Source of the DNA: Xanthomonas sp. AM6
GTDB lineage: Bacteria; Pseudomonadota; Gammaproteobacteria; Xanthomonadales; Xanthomonadaceae
DNA: 64,000 bases
Assembly (NCBI RefSeq): GCF_025665335.1
Contig: NZ_CP106869.1
Location: 3,374,501 to 3,438,500 of the forward strand
Direction: 5' to 3'
Positions 5,744-48,084 of the stretch are shown here, in pieces. Position 1 is the first letter of the stretch, and every line of letters begins with the position of its first letter. The position numbers and the translations under genes were made by a program. The notes under the pieces were generated by a model. The model had not been told where the DNA came from, ran no database searches, and saw nothing but the letters and a program-made list of their open reading frames with translations.

Positions 5744-7483
5744 ATGAAGATGCCACGCCACCTCCGCCTGTTCCTGGCACTCGCCGCGGCCGCGCCGCCG
5801 GCCCTGGCCGCGACCGATGCGCCGTACGCGATCACCATCCATGCGCAGGCGGACGCCGCCGGCAGCAGGGTCCAGGCACTGCTGGTGGACGAAGCCATCC
5901 CGCTGCCGGCCACACCGGCCGGCGCCACTGTAGTGGCGATGCCGCACGTCACCAGCAACGTGCCCACCATCGCCGGCAGCGTCGGCGAACTGCCGGCGCG
6001 CGACGACCGCGGCGCGGTGCAGCTGCGCTACCGCGACCAGGGCGAAGGCCCGGCCCGGCAGCGCCAGTGGTACGCAGAACGCGATATCGCCGGCACCCTG
6101 CGCTTTTCCTATCGCGCGACGATGACCGAAGCGCTGGCCGCGCGCGGCGCCGCGCCGCCGATCGAACTGCGCAGCGAGGAAGGCGCCTTCTCCGGCGCCG
6201 GCGCCACCTTCCTGCTGCACCCACCCAGCGGCCGCCACGACATCGCCCTGCACTGGGACCTGTCCGCACTGGGCGCAGGCGCGCATGCCGTGAGCAGCCT
6301 GCAGGACCGCAACGCCGATGACGTGGACATGGAAGCGCTGGACAGCAGCTACTTCATGGCCGGCAAGATCGGCCTGTATCCGCAGGCGCCCGACGCCACC
6401 GGCTTCTTCTCCGCCTGGCAGGGCAACACCCCGTTCGACGCGCAAAAACTGCTGGCATGGACCCAACAACTGCGCCAGCACTACCAGGCCTTCTTCGCCG
6501 TGCCGGCCACGCCCTACGGCGTGTTCCTGCGCCGCAACCGGGTGAACCCGGGCGGCGGCATGGGCATGTACAACTCCTTCGTCGTCACCTACGACGACGA
6601 CCGCGGCAACGACCCGGAACAACTGGAACTGACCCTCGCCCACGAGATGTTCCATACCTTCCAGCCGCGCATGAGCGCCCAGTACGACGGCGAAACGCTG
6701 GCCGACGCCTGGTTCAACGAAGGCATGGCCGTGTTCTACCAGGCGCGCCTGCCGTTCCGCTACGGCATGATCGACGCCGACGCGTTCCTGAAGGATCTCA
6801 ACTACACCGCTGCGCGCTACTACACCAACCTGCTCGGCAACGCCCCGAACAGCGACGTGGCGGCGAAGTTCTGGCAGGACACCCGCATCCGCACCCTGCC
6901 CTACGACCGCGGCTTCCTGTACTTCGTCACCGTCGACGACGCCCTGCGCAAGGCCAGCAACGACCGCAAATCGCTGGACGACCTGATGCTGGCGATGCTG
7001 CAACGCCAACAGCGCAACAAACAGCTCGGCATCGCCGACTGGGAAGCGGTGCTGCGCGACTCCCTCGGCGAGGACGCCATCAAGCAACTGCACGCCATGC
7101 TCGACGGCGCCGCACCGCTACCGGCCAGCGACGCCTTCGGCCCCTGCTTCGAACGCATCTCCCAACCCATGCGCCGCTACGAACTCGGCTTCGCCCCCGC
7201 GGTGCTGACCGAATCCCCGCGCATCGTCCGCGACCTGCTCCCCGGCTCGGCCGCCGCCAAGGCCGGCGTGCAAAACGGCGACGAGATCACCCGCCCGGTC
7301 GGCCAGGATCAACTACAAGGCGAGCAGGACGGCATCCTCACCCTGCAGCTCCTGCGCGACGGCAAGCCGCTGACGGTCTCGTACAGGCCGCGCGGCGAGA
7401 CCGTGGCGACGTGGCAGTGGAAGCGCAAGCAGGGCGTTGAGGAAGCCTCTTGCTCGCTGCCCGCCACCATTCACGCAAAATGA
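5744..7483 (+). CDS. Second exported HExxH/PDZ metallopeptidase (paralogue of the preceding gene)
   Basis: This 579-residue protein has a signal peptide (MKMPRHLRLFLALAAAAPPALAA). It has the same order as the preceding protein: a beta-rich N-terminal domain, LAHEMFHTFQ with the zinc HExxH, WFNEGMAVFYQ with the third ligand, LPYDRGFLYFVTVD, and a C-terminal PDZ (IVRDLLPGSAAAKAGVQNGDEI). The ATG at 5744 is preferred over an upstream TTG because it starts the signal peptide. It arose by tandem duplication with divergence and is last in the operon. Confidence 0.85.
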   Translation: MKMPRHLRLFLALAAAAPPALAATDAPYAITIHAQADAAGSRVQALLVDEAIPLPATPAGATVVAMPHVTSNVPTIAGSVGELPARDDRGAVQLRYRDQGEGPARQRQWYAERDIAGTLRFSYRATMTEALAARGAAPPIELRSEEGAFSGAGATFLLHPPSGRHDIALHWDLSALGAGAHAVSSLQDRNADDVDMEALDSSYFMAGKIGLYPQAPDATGFFSAWQGNTPFDAQKLLAWTQQLRQHYQAFFAVPATPYGVFLRRNRVNPGGGMGMYNSFVVTYDDDRGNDPEQLELTLAHEMFHTFQPRMSAQYDGETLADAWFNEGMAVFYQARLPFRYGMIDADAFLKDLNYTAARYYTNLLGNAPNSDVAAKFWQDTRIRTLPYDRGFLYFVTVDDALRKASNDRKSLDDLMLAMLQRQQRNKQLGIADWEAVLRDSLGEDAIKQLHAMLDGAAPLPASDAFGPCFERISQPMRRYELGFAPAVLTESPRIVRDLLPGSAAAKAGVQNGDEITRPVGQDQLQGEQDGILTLQLLRDGKPLTVSYRPRGETVATWQWKRKQGVEEASCSLPATIHAK

Positions 7484-34147: not shown

Positions 34148-34651
34148 TCATCTCGGCTGCCGGCCGTTGGCTTCTGCGGCCGCCGGCACCACGCGATCCA
34201 CCACGATCACGGCTTGGGCGGCGTGGACGTGGTCGTCGGCGTCGCGCCCGACTTGAACAGCAGCTCCCGCAACCTCTGCTCGTAGTTGGGCGTGCGCATC
34301 ACGTTCGACGGCGCCGGCGACAGCCTGGGACAGTAGGTCGGTGCTGCAGGTGGCGAGGTCGTCGCGCAGCTGGAGACTGCCGTCACGCACGCCAGCCACA
34401 ACAGCAGCAGGGACGGCCTGGGCCGCGGTGCGGTCTTCTTCATGCTTCACTCCGATGGCGGCCATGGTGTTGGCCTGCTTGTGCTCGATGTCGCGCGCCC
34501 CGGCCTGGGCCTTGGCTTCGCCCTGAGCCGCGGCGGTCTCCTGCTGGGACGTGGCCAGGTCCGCGCTGCGGTCGCGCCACTCACGGCCGGCCCAGAACGC
34601 GAGCGCCGTCCAGGCAACGAGCCCGACGATGGTGATCAGGATCCGGTTCAC
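34148..34651 (-). CDS. Rz: i-spanin (Rz-like)
   Basis: This 167-residue protein starts at GTG 34651. It has one N-terminal TM segment (ILITIVGLVAWTALAFWAG) followed by a long Ala/Glu/Gln/Asp-rich periplasmic helix (SADLATSQQETAAAQGEAKAQAGARDIEHKQANTM). This matches inner-membrane spanins that join with an o-spanin to fuse the membranes. The second spanin gene lies wholly within it in another frame. Confidence 0.82.
   Translation of the reverse strand: MNRILITIVGLVAWTALAFWAGREWRDRSADLATSQQETAAAQGEAKAQAGARDIEHKQANTMAAIGVKHEEDRTAAQAVPAAVVAGVRDGSLQLRDDLATCSTDLLSQAVAGAVERDAHAQLRAEVAGAAVQVGRDADDHVHAAQAVIVVDRVVPAAAEANGRQPR
34207..34443 (-). CDS. Rz1: o-spanin lipoprotein (Rz1-like) nested inside Rz
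   Basis: This 78-residue protein has a basic N-terminus and a hydrophobic stretch ending in a lipobox (LACVTAVSSC, Cys26), then a Pro-rich mature part (ATTSPPAAPTYCPRLSPAPSNV...STPPKP). It is fully embedded in the Rz gene in a different frame, as in lambda. It anchors to the outer membrane. Confidence 0.8.
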   Translation of the reverse strand: MKKTAPRPRPSLLLLWLACVTAVSSCATTSPPAAPTYCPRLSPAPSNVMRTPNYEQRLRELLFKSGATPTTTSTPPKP

Positions 34652-34653
34652 GG

Positions 34654-34788
34654 TCAGCCCCTCGGCATGTTGGATAGGTCGGCCCACAGCCACGCCAGCG
34701 CGGCAAGGAGCGCCAGGCACAGGCCTGCGATGAGCCACCCCGGCGGATCACCTGCGGGCGGCAGGCCGCGGTCCCAGCGGTCGATCAC
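34654..34788 (-). CDS. Small single-TM protein of the lysis cassette
   Basis: This 44-residue protein starts at a GTG overlapping the previous stop (GTGA). It reads IDRWDRGLPPAGDPPG then a TM helix WLIAGLCLALLAALAWLWA. It ends 2 bases before the spanin start. It could be an antiholin or pinholin-like protein. Confidence 0.55.
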   Translation of the reverse strand: MIDRWDRGLPPAGDPPGWLIAGLCLALLAALAWLWADLSNMPRG

Positions 34789-35102
34789 TTCCCGGCCGCC
34801 AGCTCGTGGATTCGGTTCATCGCCCAGGTGTAGGCCCACTGGTCGATGATCGAGATCCGGGTGACCTTCTTGCCGTTGCGCGTGGCCTGGGTGACCTCGG
34901 TACTCTCGACCAGCATCGCCACCGCCAGCAGCGCGCTGCGCGTTGTCGGGTCGGGTTCCTTGATGATCTCGATCGCGTCCGACACCATCGACCGCAGCGA
35001 GTCCAGCAGCCCGGCGGTCGGCCGCGCGTTGCGCGTGTCGATCAGCGCCAGCGCCTGCTGCAGGCCCTTGATCGCGTCCTTGTGGCTACGCGCCCGGGGC
35101 AT
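34785..35102 (-). CDS. Hypothetical protein in the lysis cassette
   Basis: This 105-residue soluble helical protein (MPRARSHKDAIKGLQQALALIDTRNARPTAGLLDSLRSMVSDAIEIIKEPDPTTRSALLAVAMLVES) overlaps the holin-like gene by 17 bases and the small TM gene by 4. Function is unknown. Confidence 0.6.
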   Translation of the reverse strand: MPRARSHKDAIKGLQQALALIDTRNARPTAGLLDSLRSMVSDAIEIIKEPDPTTRSALLAVAMLVESTEVTQATRNGKKVTRISIIDQWAYTWAMNRIHELAAGK

Positions 35103-35562
35103 CGCCGCCTCCCTGCTCCGGGGCGTCGCCGGGGTTCGGCTGCAGCGATTCCGGCCGCGCGCAGGGGAAGATGCGGTAGAGCATCCCCGAAGCCGTGGTC
35201 CACAGCCCCATCGCGGCGAAGCCGGTCATCAGAGCGAACCATGCGCCGCGCGGCGTCGGCACCTTGGCCCAGCAAACGACGATCGCCAGCAGGCAGCTCC
35301 AGAAACGGATCCGCGCCTTGGTGAACGCCGGCGGCCAGGACGCGCGCATGCCGATCTGCTGGGGCAAGTGCGGCAGCAGCAAGCCGATCGCGACGCTGAT
35401 CGCCAGGCTCATCCACATGGCCTCGACCTGCGGCACCGCCAGGAAGCTGCCCATATCGACCAGGAACAGCTTCACCGCCGGCCAGTTGTCGGCCAGCGCC
35501 AGAGCGCTGCCAGCGACGGAGACGGCCCCGGCCAGCTGCGCCAGCGTGATCCGCGATTCCAC
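35086..35562 (-). CDS. Putative holin (multi-TM)
   Basis: This 158-residue protein starts at GTG 35562. It has hydrophobic segments around 47-65 (MWMSLAISVAIGLLLPHL), 88-100 (FWSCLLAIVVCWA) and 107-125 (AWFALMTGFAAMGLWTTASG) and a hydrophilic Pro/Gly-rich C-terminus. It follows the endolysin gene directly and precedes the spanins, so a holin role is likely. No family match is claimed. Confidence 0.65.
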   Translation of the reverse strand: MESRITLAQLAGAVSVAGSALALADNWPAVKLFLVDMGSFLAVPQVEAMWMSLAISVAIGLLLPHLPQQIGMRASWPPAFTKARIRFWSCLLAIVVCWAKVPTPRGAWFALMTGFAAMGLWTTASGMLYRIFPCARPESLQPNPGDAPEQGGGDAPGA

Positions 35563-35563
35563 G

Positions 35564-36055
35564 TCAGGCCTCCGCTACCTGGCCGCCGGCGCGCCTGTAC
35601 GCCGTCAGCAGGTTGTCCAGCTTCTGCTCATGCTGGCCGTAGCCGGCGCCGGGCAGGCTCGCCCAGATGTTCGACACCCGCGCAATGGCCTCCCGGATCT
35701 TGCCGGCCTGGATCAGCGGCAGCGCCTTGCGCTCGCGGATCTGCTGCAGCGCGATCTTGTCCTGGCTCAGCGGCGAGAAGTCGGCCAGACCGAGCGTCTT
35801 GCGGTAGGCGTCGAAGTAGCGGCGCAGGAGCTGGTAGCGCCCGGCCGCGGTCGACTGGATGCGCAGCGCCGGCAGGTCCACCAGCACCCGCGGGTGGTCC
35901 GCGTAGCTGGTGAACAGCTTGCCGCCGACGATCACGTCGTAGCCGTGGTTCGCGGTCGGCTGCTTGCCGTTGTCGGTCCCCTCGGACCAGGCCAGCATGT
36001 CCAGGAAGGCCACGACGTTGCGGCCACCAGCTTGCTCGGGCGTGATGACTGCCAT
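35564..36055 (-). CDS. R: Endolysin, lambda R-type lytic transglycosylase
   Basis: This 163-residue protein starts at ATG 36055. It follows lambda gpR along its whole length: AFLDMLAWSEGTDNGKQPTANHGYDVIVGG with catalytic Glu25, FTSYADHPRVLVDL, STAAGRYQLLRRYFDAYRKTLGLADFSPLSQDKIALQQI and VSNIWASLPGAGYGQHEQKLDNLL. No signal peptide, so it needs the holin for release. A terminator separates it from the TIR gene upstream. Confidence 0.93.
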   Translation of the reverse strand: MAVITPEQAGGRNVVAFLDMLAWSEGTDNGKQPTANHGYDVIVGGKLFTSYADHPRVLVDLPALRIQSTAAGRYQLLRRYFDAYRKTLGLADFSPLSQDKIALQQIRERKALPLIQAGKIREAIARVSNIWASLPGAGYGQHEQKLDNLLTAYRRAGGQVAEA

Positions 36056-36140
36056 GGGTTCTCCGGACAACGGCAATAGGTGCCCGGCCCGCGGTCCAGC
36101 TGGACGCATGGCTTGGTCTGGCGAGGAGCCGGGCGGAAAC

Positions 36141-36171
36141 GAAAAAGCCCCCGGGGATCTCCCGAGGGCTT
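36141..36171 (-). terminator. Intrinsic terminator between the TIR gene and the lysis genes
   Basis: On the minus strand AAGCCCTCGGG pairs with CCCGGGGGCTT (ten pairs, one mismatch) around a 5-base loop, followed by TTTTTCG. It lies 45 bases past the TIR stop and 85 before the endolysin. Its place is like lambda tR', which Q antitermination must pass to express the lysis and late genes. Confidence 0.85.
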
Positions 36172-36215
36172 CTATGTCAGCGTGCCGAAAAAACTACACC
36201 AGAGGTGTGCACCTG

Positions 36216-37370
36216 TCAATCTTGCGCAGGTGGGCGAATCCACGCGAAAGGACCGCTCCGCCGGAGATAAGGCAGTATGTCGTAGAAGGGAACGAAGACT
36301 GTCCAGCTGCCCTCAGCGTAAGGACCAACTTGGTATGGCGGAAACATGAAGGTCAGCCCATCATCTGAGATGCTGAAGTTCAAGAAATTCTCGATATCTG
36401 CCCCCGCACCGTCCTTGATCCATTCAAGGCTAGAGCCATCGGCCTCACGCCCAAACCTTCTCCAATATTCCCGCTGCAACTCTGCAATGGAAAAATTACT
36501 TACTGCCTCTATGGCTGGCGAAAGCTCACTGAAGAGATCACTCAGTTCAAGCTGAACCAAATGCGGCGTCAACACGAAGTTGTATGTTTCGAAATGAGAG
36601 TTCGGATGCGCGGCTCCAGCTCCATACCAGCCGACACGAAATATAAGGCTCAGAAGACGCTCCGACGAATAGGCGATTTCGTAGTCGTCCCAGCGGCCGT
36701 TTGAAGGAGGGGCATCGAGTTGGTCAGAAAACAGATCAGGGCTCTGGTCCCAGATCTTCTGCCTAGCGTCTACGGCCGCCTTTCTGGCTCGTCCCTCGAA
36801 GAACTGGCTAAGTTCTTCCGCTAGCGGAGACGCAACCTGCGACGTGAATTTTGGATACGACACCGAGATATCGTGCCCAGGCAAGCCTTCCCAGCGCTCG
36901 ACAATTGCTTTTGGAATAACTCGAAATGGCCCAAACTCAGCACCCTCTTCGCCCTTAATTGACTGCTGCTCGGCGGCCAACGCAAGGGCTGACGTCACGC
37001 TACTTCTCGCGTCTGGACTGTTCCAATCGACGTACTGGAGCCTCGATGAAATTTGTGAAGGGACCTCACAAGGCTCGAGAAGCACCGGGACTGCGTAGAC
37101 ATCCGTTGGCTGTTTGTAGACCAGCTTCTGTAAAGCCTCGTTCGCCTCGCGTTGCACAAAGCCGCGCTTGTGCACGCTTCTCGGGCTAAGCAGAAGAAGA
37201 ATGACATTGGCGTCGCTGAATGCCTTCGCTATTTCCGCTTCCCAGTTTTGCCCCGGAAGCAAACACCTCTGGTCTATCCAAGGTTCAACACCTATGGACG
37301 CGAGCCAGTTGTAAATTTCTAGAGCAGCCTCTCCATCCTCTCTGGCGTAGCTTACAAATACCTTGAGCAT
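36216..37370 (-). CDS. TIR domain fused to DUF4163/DUF3298-like domain (probable phage-borne defence or conversion gene)
   Basis: This 384-residue protein starts at ATG 37370 (MLKVFVSYARED, the usual TIR beginning). Residues 1-130 are a TIR_2 domain: KVFVSYAREDGEAALEIYNWLASIGVEPWIDQRCLLPGQNWEAEI, VILLLLSPRSV and FVQREANEAL with Glu75 as the likely NAD-cleaving residue. Residues about 165-255 resemble DUF4163 (ISVSYPKFTSQVASPLAEELSQFFEGRARKA). Residues 250-362 resemble DUF3298 (GAAHPNSHFETYNFVL, QLELSDLF, NFSISDDGLTFMFPPYQVGPYAEGSWTVFVPFYDILPYL). There is no signal peptide, so it is cytoplasmic, unlike RsiV or PdaC. It lies 39 bases downstream of the Q-like gene and has clearly lower GC than the phage. 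Confidence 0.8.
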   Translation of the reverse strand: MLKVFVSYAREDGEAALEIYNWLASIGVEPWIDQRCLLPGQNWEAEIAKAFSDANVILLLLSPRSVHKRGFVQREANEALQKLVYKQPTDVYAVPVLLEPCEVPSQISSRLQYVDWNSPDARSSVTSALALAAEQQSIKGEEGAEFGPFRVIPKAIVERWEGLPGHDISVSYPKFTSQVASPLAEELSQFFEGRARKAAVDARQKIWDQSPDLFSDQLDAPPSNGRWDDYEIAYSSERLLSLIFRVGWYGAGAAHPNSHFETYNFVLTPHLVQLELSDLFSELSPAIEAVSNFSIAELQREYWRRFGREADGSSLEWIKDGAGADIENFLNFSISDDGLTFMFPPYQVGPYAEGSWTVFVPFYDILPYLRRSGPFAWIRPPAQD

Positions 37371-37409
37371 AAAATTCCAGCGACCCTGTGTTTCAGAAAG
37401 CATACTAGG

Positions 37410-37841
37410 TCACGCCGCCTCTGACACCCACCCCTCTAGACGACCCCGTACACGCTGAAATCCTAGCTCTACCAGGGTTAAATACTGTCGCATCGACACT
37501 GGACGCTGCCGGCAATTCGCCATTAGCGTGACCGCGGTGTCGTATCGCTCAACTTTCCTTCGGCCGGAACCGCAATAGTAGGCCCGCAGTGAACATGACA
37601 TGCCGATGTTGTCGCGGGCGATGCTGGCGACAATGCTCTCTATCTCTTGAGCACGCGGATCGCAGAACAGTGGCGCGTATCCTTGGGGCCTTGCCGGCAT
37701 CTCACCGCGGTGTTCAATCAGGATCTGGAGCATATTTTTCGACTGATGGCCCAAATACTCACAGTCGCGTGCTAAGCAGAATTCCTCGCCCCACTGCTCA
37801 AGTCGGCGGCGCACATACACTCCAAAGGTATCAAGCTGCAT
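37410..37841 (-). CDS. Q-like late antiterminator
   Basis: This 143-residue protein shows the layout of phage Q/ArpU/RinA-type late regulators: an N-terminal LEQWGEEFCLARDCEYLGHQSKNMLQIL, a middle RAQEIESIVASIARDNIGMSCSLRAYYCGSG, and a C-terminal RYDTAVTLMANCRQRPVSMRQYLTLVELGFQRVRGRLEGW that may be a helix-turn-helix. Position (last early gene, before lysis and late genes) supports the role. Base composition is lower in GC, as for the adjoining TIR gene. The family assignment is by pattern only. Confidence 0.6.
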   Translation of the reverse strand: MQLDTFGVYVRRRLEQWGEEFCLARDCEYLGHQSKNMLQILIEHRGEMPARPQGYAPLFCDPRAQEIESIVASIARDNIGMSCSLRAYYCGSGRRKVERYDTAVTLMANCRQRPVSMRQYLTLVELGFQRVRGRLEGWVSEAA

Positions 37842-39904: not shown

Positions 39905-39978
39905 GCGCCCCCCCGCCCAAGGCTTGCGTGCGGCTGGTCCACGTTGCACGATGCGGCCAACCACAGCGAAGGACCGAC

Positions 39979-40524
39979 ATGGCCGACCCTCTCTACTGCC
40001 CTTGGTTCTTCTCTGCGCCCTGTCTCAAGCCAGAGGTTTGGGCTGCATGGGCCCAAGCGATCTTGTCGGTAGCAGCCATTTTTGTGGCGGCGAAACTCCA
40101 GCGGTGGCAAGCCCAGGATGCCTCGCGAGAGAAGATGCACTCCTGCATCGAGTTGATCTCTTTCGCTACGTTTGTCGCGTCGCTGATGGAACGTCACTTC
40201 GAAGGGAAGAAGATCGGCGGTCCGCGTGTGATCCATGCCGAGCTCGTGCAGCTTTGCCGAGCATTTGATTCCATCAACTACATGGACATTCCTAACCGAC
40301 AACTGGCCGTATGCGTGCAGCGCGCTGCATCCACGGCGAACACCCTGCGATCCATCCAAGAGCTTCTTCTGGAGCACAAGAAGCTGGATCAAGAACGGTC
40401 GCTGGGAATCATCAAGAAGCACTCCGCGGCTCTCGATAGCCTTCTTGGCGAAGCCATGAAGGCCACTGGCGTGCGGCCCCGCGACCTCAACGAGCAAAAG
40501 GAACTTCCGCCGGATGTCGGATGA
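39979..40524 (+). CDS. Single-TM protein encoded against the operon (moron)
   Basis: This 181-residue protein starts at ATG 39979. Residues about 18-38 (EVWAAWAQAILSVAAIFVAAKLQRW) form one TM helix close to the N-terminus. The rest is soluble and helical with an I/L-spaced end (RSIQELLLEHKKLDQERSLGIIKKHSAALDSLLGEAMKATG). It lies alone on the plus strand within a minus-strand operon and has lower GC, which fits an independently expressed cargo gene. Superinfection exclusion or defence is possible but unsupported by homology. Confidence 0.7.
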   Translation: MADPLYCPWFFSAPCLKPEVWAAWAQAILSVAAIFVAAKLQRWQAQDASREKMHSCIELISFATFVASLMERHFEGKKIGGPRVIHAELVQLCRAFDSINYMDIPNRQLAVCVQRAASTANTLRSIQELLLEHKKLDQERSLGIIKKHSAALDSLLGEAMKATGVRPRDLNEQKELPPDVG

Positions 40525-46473: not shown

Positions 46474-46518
46474 CGGCGATATGGCTGTAACTTGACCCCC
46501 AGGGATTGGGGTCGACAC

Positions 46519-48084
46519 ATGGGCTATAGGACGAAACAGCTGGGGCTAGCCCTGTTGTATGCAGCAATTTATGCGGTCGCGTTCCGCACTGCCTGGCAGC
46601 ATTCCGAAGATCAGTTCTATCTCCCCGCCGGGCTGCGAATCGCCGCGCTTCTGTTCGCTCCGTATCGATTTTGGCCGAGCATCTTGATCGGCGACGCGGT
46701 AGCGATGATGGCTATCCGAGTGCCGATCGCTGCCGATCTGAATGCCTCTGCGATCTGGCCCTACGCCAGTTCGATGCTGCTAAGCCCGCTGGTTTCTCTC
46801 GCTCCGCTGGCAATCAGGACACGTTTTGCATCGGCGATGTCGAACGAACGTTGGCTACCCGTCGCGTTGTTGGTTGTAGCTGTTTGGGGCGTCTCCGTCA
46901 GCACGTTTTTGAATGCACTGCTAGGCGGACCGGTGGATAGCGATCTCGTCGCCTACATCTACCGCTTCAGTATCGGCCAGTACCTCGCGATCATGGTGGC
47001 GGTGCTCCCCGTGCTGCTGTGGGTCCGCAGAAATGATGCGACGCATGCGCCGCCACATCTTGTTCGTGATGCGTTCATTGCGATGGTGGTGCTGGGCATT
47101 GCATACGCAGCCCTGCCCGTCTCCAACCAGCACTGGGAAAAGCTTGCGCTGCTCGGCGCAATGCTCCTGCCACCTGTCTCCCTCGCCTTTCTGCACGGCT
47201 GGAGAGGCGCGGCTGTCGGGATCGTGGTGACGACATTGGCACTCGGCCTTGCCATGCCGGATACGGGCCTGCTGGGCAACAAGGACCTCGCGGTTTTCGT
47301 CGCGCAGCAATCGTTGGCGGTCGTCGGCACGGTGCTCATGGTGCTGGGCTCCGCCGTGTCCAGCGAATACGACAAGACCTCGCGGCTCCAGCGCGCAAAA
47401 GCCGATGCCCTATGGCTGGCTCGATGCAACCACCTATCGGCGGAGATGTTGCTTCGCGATTGTGCTCAGGCAATTGCCGATGAGCAGGCTGAGATCGACG
47501 CGGGCTACCGCAAGACGGCCAAGCAACTGAAGGCGGAGGGCCGCTACTCGCTCGCCCTGCAGGTCAATACCCAGGGCTTCCAAAACAGCCGCATGCTATT
47601 CAAGCAGGTGACGGCGCTCTATCCGCTGGATCTGGATAGTCTGGGGCTGTTCGAGGTGCTGCAGTCGGATGAATTTCTTGCCGTCGCCTATGGCCGCGTG
47701 ACGATGGTGTCGCTGCGCGGCAGCATCGAGCAGCACAGCTCAACGCTACAGCTCGTCGCTCATCGGAGCATCGCGCATGCGATCGAGCTTTTGCCGCATG
47801 GGGAGAGTCGGCTCCAGGTTCGCGCCTGGACCCTGCGCAGGCGGCGCGGCATATCGGTGACGCTGCGATCCGAGTCGAAGACTTCGACTCAGCCTGATGC
47901 GCAGCGGTTGCGCCTTGCTGAAATGCAGTTGCAGGCCAAGGTGCAGGCATACGGCGGCGCATTCAAACGCCGTCGCATGCGAGTGGTTTTCACGCTAACC
48001 GAAGACGTCGATCAGTTCTTGGAAACCGGCACAATCACCCACGAGACGCCATTAGTGCCCTTCAGCGCCCTCACGACGAAGTGA
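46519..48084 (+). CDS. MASE1-domain membrane protein with degenerate kinase-like C-terminus
   Basis: This 521-residue protein has about eight TM helices in the first 290 residues, with the MASE1 pattern (LALLYAAIYAVAFRTAW, LPAGLRIAALLFAPYRFWPSILIGDAVAM, SSMLLSPLVSLAPLAIRTRF). The cytoplasmic part (about 295-521) starts like a dimerisation helix (SEYDKTSRLQRAKADALWLARCNHLSAEMLLRDCAQAIADEQAEID) and ends in a beta-rich region that resembles a worn HATPase fold but shows no N/G1/G2 boxes or phospho-His. It is in the rexAB-like position between cI and the second operator. Confidence 0.75.
   Translation: MGYRTKQLGLALLYAAIYAVAFRTAWQHSEDQFYLPAGLRIAALLFAPYRFWPSILIGDAVAMMAIRVPIAADLNASAIWPYASSMLLSPLVSLAPLAIRTRFASAMSNERWLPVALLVVAVWGVSVSTFLNALLGGPVDSDLVAYIYRFSIGQYLAIMVAVLPVLLWVRRNDATHAPPHLVRDAFIAMVVLGIAYAALPVSNQHWEKLALLGAMLLPPVSLAFLHGWRGAAVGIVVTTLALGLAMPDTGLLGNKDLAVFVAQQSLAVVGTVLMVLGSAVSSEYDKTSRLQRAKADALWLARCNHLSAEMLLRDCAQAIADEQAEIDAGYRKTAKQLKAEGRYSLALQVNTQGFQNSRMLFKQVTALYPLDLDSLGLFEVLQSDEFLAVAYGRVTMVSLRGSIEQHSSTLQLVAHRSIAHAIELLPHGESRLQVRAWTLRRRRGISVTLRSESKTSTQPDAQRLRLAEMQLQAKVQAYGGAFKRRRMRVVFTLTEDVDQFLETGTITHETPLVPFSALTTK

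Follow-up and report, generated by a model that had tools for sequence, protein, structure and literature searches.

We identified in a prophage of Xanthomonas sp. AM6 a gene that joins a TIR domain to a DUF4163-DUF3298 module in one protein, and it is likely that this gene is a single-gene abortive infection system in which the DUF4163-DUF3298 module would detect a phage product in the cytoplasm and trigger the destruction of NAD+. This reading is supported by the fusion itself, its conserved motifs, the lack of an export signal, the co-inheritance of the two halves, the absence of a shared partner gene, a mobile or defence-related context, and one case in which the same module is joined to an HNH nuclease.

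The fusion gene and its domains

The gene occupies positions 36216..37370 on the minus strand of the window, that is, the whole stretch of 64,000 nucleotides that was analysed, and encodes 384 amino acids in a single open frame; Pfam matches and alignment with 16 other full-length fusions define it as a TIR-DUF4163-DUF3298 fusion. An in-frame ATG at 37403 is a possible alternative start that would add 11 residues, and the start at 37370 is preferred because of the start positions in relatives. The first ~130 residues had been read from the sequence as a TIR domain, and residues 4-118 (37017..37361, minus strand) indeed match TIR_2 (PF13676; E 1.1e-22, 81.2 bits against a cut-off of 28) and align with TIR sequences in the PDB. 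In this alignment the codon of the catalytic-type Glu75 lies at 37148-37146 (minus strand). The DUF4163/PdaC-like part, which ends in a conserved G.AAHPN motif, spans residues 168-258 (36597..36869, minus strand) and matches PF13739 with E 4.7e-4 and 21.7 bits, below the cut-off of 29.1. It is followed by the DUF3298 domain with its PY.V..YA.G motif at residues 277-362 (36285..36542, minus strand), which matches PF11738 with E 2.2e-15 and 57.8 bits against a cut-off of 24.1. Since the TIR match starts at residue 4 there is no space for an export signal, in agreement with the sequence-only reading.

Pfam gave no polysaccharide deacetylase domain in the window protein. An APAZ match was also absent, and all PADLOC matches at E <= 0.001 lie in the TIR part. 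The best PADLOC model was TIR-SAVED, with a SPARTA-type model second, and this order counts against our preferred reading. NCBIfam returned matches to the TIR part and an esterase-family match on residues 229-365, all far under their cut-offs. The G+C content of the gene is 53%, compared with 67% for the window, and only 1.1% of 629 overlapping gene-sized windows (its own included) are as low, which fits a recent cargo gene. No second full-length copy was found in the same genome.

Prophage setting

We found the fusion gene within a lambda-like prophage, the location that the sequence-only reading had proposed. The minus-strand genes run in the order DnaB, NinB, a Ref-like nuclease (profile match below cut-off), a Q-like antiterminator, the TIR fusion, a hairpin, an endolysin, an unassigned ORF, Rz, HNH and terminase, and an integrase adjoins ispH/LytB at the other prophage end. 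The upstream neighbour (37410..37841, minus strand) has no match in Pfam or PHROGs and is assigned to Q because it is 50.0% and 48.9% identical to the annotated "putative antitermination protein Q" of two Cylindrospermopsis phages, in both of which the gene annotated directly after Q is labelled spanin. Downstream lie the endolysin (35564..36109, minus strand; phrog_90, 3.2e-57), the unassigned ORF without a PHROGs match (35086-35562, minus strand) and the Rz-like spanin (34148-34738, minus strand; phrog_2466, 1.1e-18).

A strong intrinsic-terminator-like hairpin with a T run (36141..36173, minus strand) separates the TIR gene from the lysis genes; it was located by hand in the fold of 36134-36215 (-35.7 kcal/mol, z -3.7). 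The terminator scan did not list this hairpin and gave a weaker site at 36208-36196, which is not above chance (1 found against 1.9 expected). A promoter scan found no promoter near the fusion gene, which also weighs against our preferred reading. A possible late promoter, seen by eye, is a TTGACA at 36219-36214 that overlaps the stop codon ahead of the hairpin and has a poor -10. The fusion gene itself might be transcribed only together with Q after induction, and its expression from a silent prophage is uncertain.

The same slot, with the fusion between Q and the lysis genes, was found in a 44-kb viral contig (L005) that carries a Q-like gene (phrog_127, 3.5e-24), the TIR fusion, holin, endolysin and Rz, and whose fusion protein is 57% identical to that of the window. 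In a second contig (L064) two ORFs that look Rz-like and hydrolase-like by eye adjoin the fusion, and in a third (L004), where it is on the opposite strand, it is flanked by the small terminase gene and by a phrog_4300 gene that follows a primase. A prophage gene that serves the phage's own lytic cycle, for example by setting the time of lysis or altering host metabolism once the prophage is induced, would also be expected in the place that the fusion has in the window and L005, behind Q and ahead of the lysis cassette, where its proximity to Q suggests co-transcription. We consider such a role very unlikely, as the Pseudomonas, Burkholderiales and rhizobial island copies described below lack that setting and the copies in L004, L064 and Escherichia coli are on the strand opposite to the adjoining phage genes.

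Two further genes of the window prophage run against the direction of the phage genes. One (46492-48084, plus strand) encodes a 530-aa MASE1-domain protein, which is unusual phage cargo. The other (39928-40524, plus strand) is a low-GC ORF of 198 aa between the Ref-like gene and NinB that has no Pfam match and is possibly another cargo gene.

A divergent protein family with patchy distribution

Using patterns and profiles, we found relatives in viral contigs, bacterial genomes and two rhizobial plasmids. The fusion thus constitutes a protein family with 19 distinct full-length members, 17 of which were aligned and two more (L114 and L116) read, in Pseudomonas, Burkholderiales, rhizobia, viral contigs and E. 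coli. The bacterial-genome search gave eight loci, seven of them full-length. One viral-contig search gave nine loci, all TIR fusions, from which four new proteins were left, since three loci repeat L003, L005 and L004 and another three (L065, L066 and L069) encode one protein; L114 and L116 were the new ones among eight loci of a further search. L003 and L005 encode the same protein, and two shortened copies, L013 and L030, were excluded from the 17. The former, from Geomobilimonas (5935-6513), ends soon past the TIR part, and the latter is a TIR gene of an Acidovorax plasmid (4995-5378) with an IS3 transposase close behind.

The aligned relatives are 23-57% identical to the window protein. 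In all 17, W31, D33, G40, W43, E46 and E75 are invariant in the TIR part and G252, A254, H255, N257, P345, Y346, Y351 and G354 in the C-terminal part, and this conservation in both halves of divergent homologues excludes a chance ORF. The identities of the TIR and C-terminal parts covary over the 136 pairs (Mantel r 0.98, with 0 of 2000 permutations as high), indicating that the halves are inherited as a unit; common descent alone suffices to explain this, so it speaks for co-inheritance only.

A full-length match was found in one of 299 genomes of the order (E limit 1e-3), in one of 20 genomes of the genus (E limit 1e-20) and in one of 398 genomes of the phylum (E limit 1e-30), the latter two limits being ones that distant fusions could escape; in each case the match was the window's own. 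The collection of phage records gave no match. This patchy presence led us to reject a housekeeping gene, and the fusion is likewise not the common annotated housekeeping family that the sequence-only reading had named as a result that would refute it.

The TIR domain

A profile built from 14 family TIRs and searched against PDB sequences gave 17 matches at E <= 0.01, the best being 8qlo (2.6e-7). Two of the first nine carry the name TIR-APAZ, and we take eight of the nine, 8qlo included, to be SPARTA-type TIRs; AbTIR-type structures are among the remaining matches. PADLOC models that are presumably SPARTA-type were best for five relatives. In the alignment with 8ifk, Glu75 corresponds to E77, G40 to G42 and R110 to R114 (numbers counted by hand). 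The sequence-only reading had proposed Glu75 as the catalytic-position residue, and its residue count is correct. R110 is an arginine in 14 of the 17 fusions and a lysine in the other three. E77A is used as a catalytic mutant in a study of a SPARTA-type TIR, where mutations of G42 and R114 impaired assembly and NAD+ consumption (PMC10474274, with 8ifk taken as the same protein by its numbering).

By its profile matches and the glutamate at the catalytic position, the TIR domain of the fusion is probably of the NADase type. Some TIR domains are non-enzymatic, and a TIR that acts as a scaffold only, in a protein whose function is unrelated to NAD+, would fit that background. We regard this as extremely unlikely, given that W31, D33, G40, W43, E46 and Glu75 stay invariant down to 23% identity with the window protein.

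The C-terminal module and its relation to RsiV

We examined the C-terminal parts of 13 family members, all of which match DUF3298 and 11 of which match PdaC (E <= 0.1). Two of them, L029 (32.7 bits) and L031 (31.4 bits; P0002), exceed the PdaC cut-off that the window protein misses. The sequence-only reading had called this half "RsiV/PdaC-like" and named the two Pfam profiles as the check. The DUF3298 identity holds throughout, and the PdaC assignment is below cut-off in the window protein itself and carried by L029 and L031. The label is further weakened by the missing deacetylase domain and by the fact that the family C-terminal profile did not match RsiV even at E <= 10. In the PDB this profile matched 3cyg (7.1e-13), 3s5t (1.1e-9) and MPT64 (1e-3).

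A broader DUF3298 profile, to which exported DUF3298 proteins had been added, does match RsiV (8.7e-13), with TTQASSYT of RsiV aligned to GGAHPN in the profile and to GAGAAHPN in the fusion. In RsiV, the DUF4163-DUF3298 part binds lysozyme in the active site of the latter (PMC5014341), and the stretch E163-T171 accounts for 10 of the 21 rows of the lysozyme contact table (Table 2 of the same paper; residue numbers matched by hand). This contact loop 1 is absent from the fusion, which keeps a generic GGAHPN-type loop in its place. The second contact loop, YEVAPGY, has a generic counterpart in the fusion, PYQVGPYAEG.

These comparisons bear on a lysozyme-like trigger, in which the module's saddle would grip a phage lysin, either an endolysin or a virion lysozyme, at its active-site cleft in the way that RsiV engages C-type lysozyme, and would set off the destruction of NAD+ while lysin builds up in the cytoplasm. 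The ligand of RsiV, the retained second loop and the adjoining lysis genes in the window and L005, with the Rz-like and hydrolase-like ORFs of L064, would all suit such a trigger. Nevertheless we consider it unlikely, with the replacement of contact loop 1 weakening the case for an RsiV-type lysozyme receptor. In addition, MPT64, which is nearer to the fusion in sequence than RsiV, did not co-purify with lysozyme (PMC5014341). No lysis genes adjoin the fusion in L004, L031, L065 and L068 (by eye) or in the chromosomal loci that were read, and a chitinase-like ORF in L070 is ~3 kb off. The gap between Q and the lysis genes may be a mere cargo slot, and the endolysins of the carrier phages would themselves have to avoid self-activation.

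The GGAHPN and PY.V..YA.G motifs are also present in exported DUF3298 proteins; being common to these, they give no pointer to a phage ligand, which counts against the preferred reading of the module as a phage sensor. Judged by eye and without an export predictor, stand-alone DUF3298 proteins of the phylum appear to be exported at 24 of 25 loci (23 displayed and L052, with one gene counted twice as L016 and L044), the remaining locus, L040, being the HNH form. In a second set of 17 loci, 15 were stand-alone and 13 of these were in the correct frame (frames were wrong for L106 and L107); all 13 look exported by eye.

An HNH form of the same module

We also found, at L040 (1033-1983, plus strand), an HNH nuclease joined to DUF4163-DUF3298, adjoining an FRG-domain gene (14-946). 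The HNH (1.2e-9) and DUF3298 (1.3e-8) matches are above cut-off and the PdaC match (0.002) is below. A swap of the killing domain on the same module is as expected of an intracellular sensor, and the HNH version suggests that the system is defined by its sensor and not by the TIR domain. The form is known from one genome, a point against our preferred reading. A search of 293 genomes gave no second HNH-DUF3298 protein, only L040 and one match to the HNH part, and viral contigs gave none, with three plasmids matching the HNH part only. A further HNH protein at L091 (1474-2331, plus strand) is 51% identical to L040 over the HNH part and differs by eye in its C-terminal part; the HNH domain may thus be an exchangeable effector too.

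Genomic neighbourhoods and the search for a partner

Several of the chromosomal and plasmid copies are near known defence genes. PADLOC matched neighbours to IetA, IetS and a PifA-like protein at L011, to PDC-M60A, B and C at L009, to a caspase and a bSEFIR protein at L006, to IetA, IetS and PDC-S57 at L029, and to DarT at L028. Five neighbours scanned at L008, L010 and L012 and two at the phage loci L064 and L068 gave no match. Overall, 12 of the 22 neighbours scanned were matched (8/10, 4/10 and 0/2 over three scans of 25 proteins, three GF131 cargo genes not being counted), and the matches fall at five of eight chromosomal or plasmid loci, which are all the full-length non-viral loci except L007 and the window. 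As the neighbours were picked by eye without a random-gene control, this is guilt by association and not a statistic. IetA-IetS lies near the fusion in two unrelated hosts, a Pseudomonas (L011, 1105-4686) and an Agrobacterium (L029, 12289-15574).

We compared 1293 open frames of at least 70 codons from 17 loci, all against all, and the fusion was the sole ORF family present in all 17, with flanks of at most ~6-8 kb that are shorter in L007, L064 and L068. The other shared groups were mostly frames overlapping the same gene, along with a four-locus group that is LysR-like by eye (one annotated PcaQ), the repeat described next, and IetA and IetS in L011 and L029. A two-gene system was rejected, as no neighbour is common to the 17 loci. 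Long inverted repeats lie upstream of the fusion in three Pseudomonas genomes (L006 5342-5782, L009 5594-5838 and L011 5411-5789), with partial similarity in L004; Rfam gave no match to the L006 repeat region. Because two of the three Pseudomonas genomes also have copies at other places, the repeat was not counted as part of the system.

The lack of a partner is relevant to a Thoeris-like arrangement, in which the TIR domain would make a cyclic ADP-ribose-type signal for a separate effector. ThsB proteins are TIR proteins, and PADLOC ThsB models match the window protein (5.7e-7). Its top NCBIfam match is to the Thoeris type III protein ThcB4 (5.7e-9, 35.3 bits against a cut-off of 220), and the caspase-like and bSEFIR-like genes of L006 could be taken for effectors of this kind. 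We nevertheless find this arrangement improbable, as no effector gene is common to the 17 loci within the flanks given above and the top PDB matches of the TIR profile are SPARTA-type TIRs.

Near-identical copies in Escherichia coli

Of 5426 complete E. coli genomes, 15 carry the L065 variant with 99.9-100% identity, and there its homologue WP_000688840.1 is annotated merely as "TIR domain-containing protein"; the DNA of the window gene itself had no match in E. coli. In the four records examined (IAI39, DSM 103246, Rb-23 and 1002W03) the gene is oriented opposite to the adjoining phage genes and has on one side a satellite-like block with Icd-like, primase, SSB, capsid, decoration and helix-turn-helix genes. 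On its other side are a lambda-like capsid gene, N-terminally incomplete according to its annotation, and then tail genes of lambda-like type. Three of these records annotate the primase gene as broken, and IAI39, the only one examined that far, also shows an integrase and tRNA-Arg. From its gene content we label the element PICI-like.

Strain GF131 has the same flanks with other cargo between them, namely DUF3892 and three hypothetical genes (L082, 5011-6948), and in two further strains the block is elsewhere and the terminase small subunit is at that place. The E. coli site therefore accepts varying cargo. PICIs are reported to carry immune systems in accessory regions (PMC11364771). The GF131 genes are possibly undescribed defence cargo; three of the four were scanned by PADLOC and gave no match.

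Proposed function

We infer a sensor role for the module, activation by assembly, NAD+ cleavage and phage defence as the outcome. In the abortive infection reading that we prefer, the DUF4163-DUF3298 module would act in the cytoplasm as a receptor whose ligand comes from an invading phage, and binding of this phage product would gather the TIR domains into an active NAD+-cleaving assembly. The collapse of NAD+ would then halt the infected cell ahead of phage release, which would protect the lysogen population and the resident prophage. The fusion is carried by phages and a PICI-like satellite or lies beside defence genes, without a fixed partner.

There are precedents for such a mechanism. SpbK is a TIR NADase that a phage portal protein activates and that loses its activity on change of Glu192 (PMC11984713), and Thoeris TIR proteins have been described to sense major capsid proteins (PMC12578639). 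A prophage with such a gene must escape it on induction, as BstA does by means of a DNA element (PMC8585504).

Potentially, DUF4163-DUF3298 could be a general intracellular phage sensor with swappable effectors, whose ligand is a phage cell-wall hydrolase held by the RsiV-type saddle. The effectors found on the module to date are a TIR domain in 19 distinct proteins and an HNH nuclease in one. This extended version is a long shot; if true, the cell would read the phage's own lysis enzyme as an alarm. Knowledge of the trigger would reveal whether phage detection inside the cell makes use of a recruited lysozyme-receptor fold, and the near-identical copies in E. coli make the question testable at once in laboratory strains.

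Comparison with known systems

TIR immunity is known, and as far as we found, a DUF4163-DUF3298 sensor appears not to have been described before, consistent with the earlier statement that no TIR-DUF3298 defence protein was known. A full-text search, which did not reach supplementary candidate tables, found no paper with both TIR and DUF3298. Judged from its listing, the DUF3298 literature found apparently does not concern TIR defence, subscription papers and bioRxiv preprints being mostly outside the search. The E. coli protein accession, its locus tag and the obvious fusion name gave no literature match, and the main text of an E. coli pangenome screen (PMC9519451) contains neither TIR nor DUF3298. 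The fusion would thus represent a new type of sensor for TIR immunity and a cytoplasmic role for a module so far studied in exported proteins.

SpbK, which is carried by ICEBs1 and activated by the SPbeta portal protein, resembles the fusion in being a single TIR defence protein on a mobile element, with a catalytic glutamate and a separate sensor. However, its TIR domain is C-terminal and its sensor N-terminal, and DUF3298 is not mentioned in the accessible part of PMC11984713. The TIR-NLR of P4-like satellites is likewise a single-gene TIR system on a phage satellite, but its sensor consists of a STAND NTPase and TPR (PMC9122126). The TIR-APAZ proteins of SPARTA are the top PDB matches of the TIR profile and share the glutamate and glycine positions (Glu75 and G40 for E77 and G42). 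They differ in having APAZ, a short Argonaute partner and guide RNA sensing, where the fusion has DUF4163-DUF3298 as its sensor. In Thoeris there is a linked effector gene of the ThsA or another type, which was not found as a shared partner in the 17 fusion loci.

On the side of the module, the PdaC deacetylase is set apart by the polysaccharide deacetylase domain that Pfam does not find in the fusion. The nearest solved relatives of the C-terminal part, 3CYG, 3S5T and MPT64 (Rv1980c), lack a TIR domain, and MPT64 is secreted, unlike the fusion with its lack of an export signal. RsiV (5JEN) shares the DUF4163-DUF3298 module and uses it as a receptor, but it is a membrane anti-sigma factor with the module outside and a different contact loop 1. 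Where RsiV has a cytoplasmic sigma-binding part and a membrane segment before the module, the fusion has a TIR domain.
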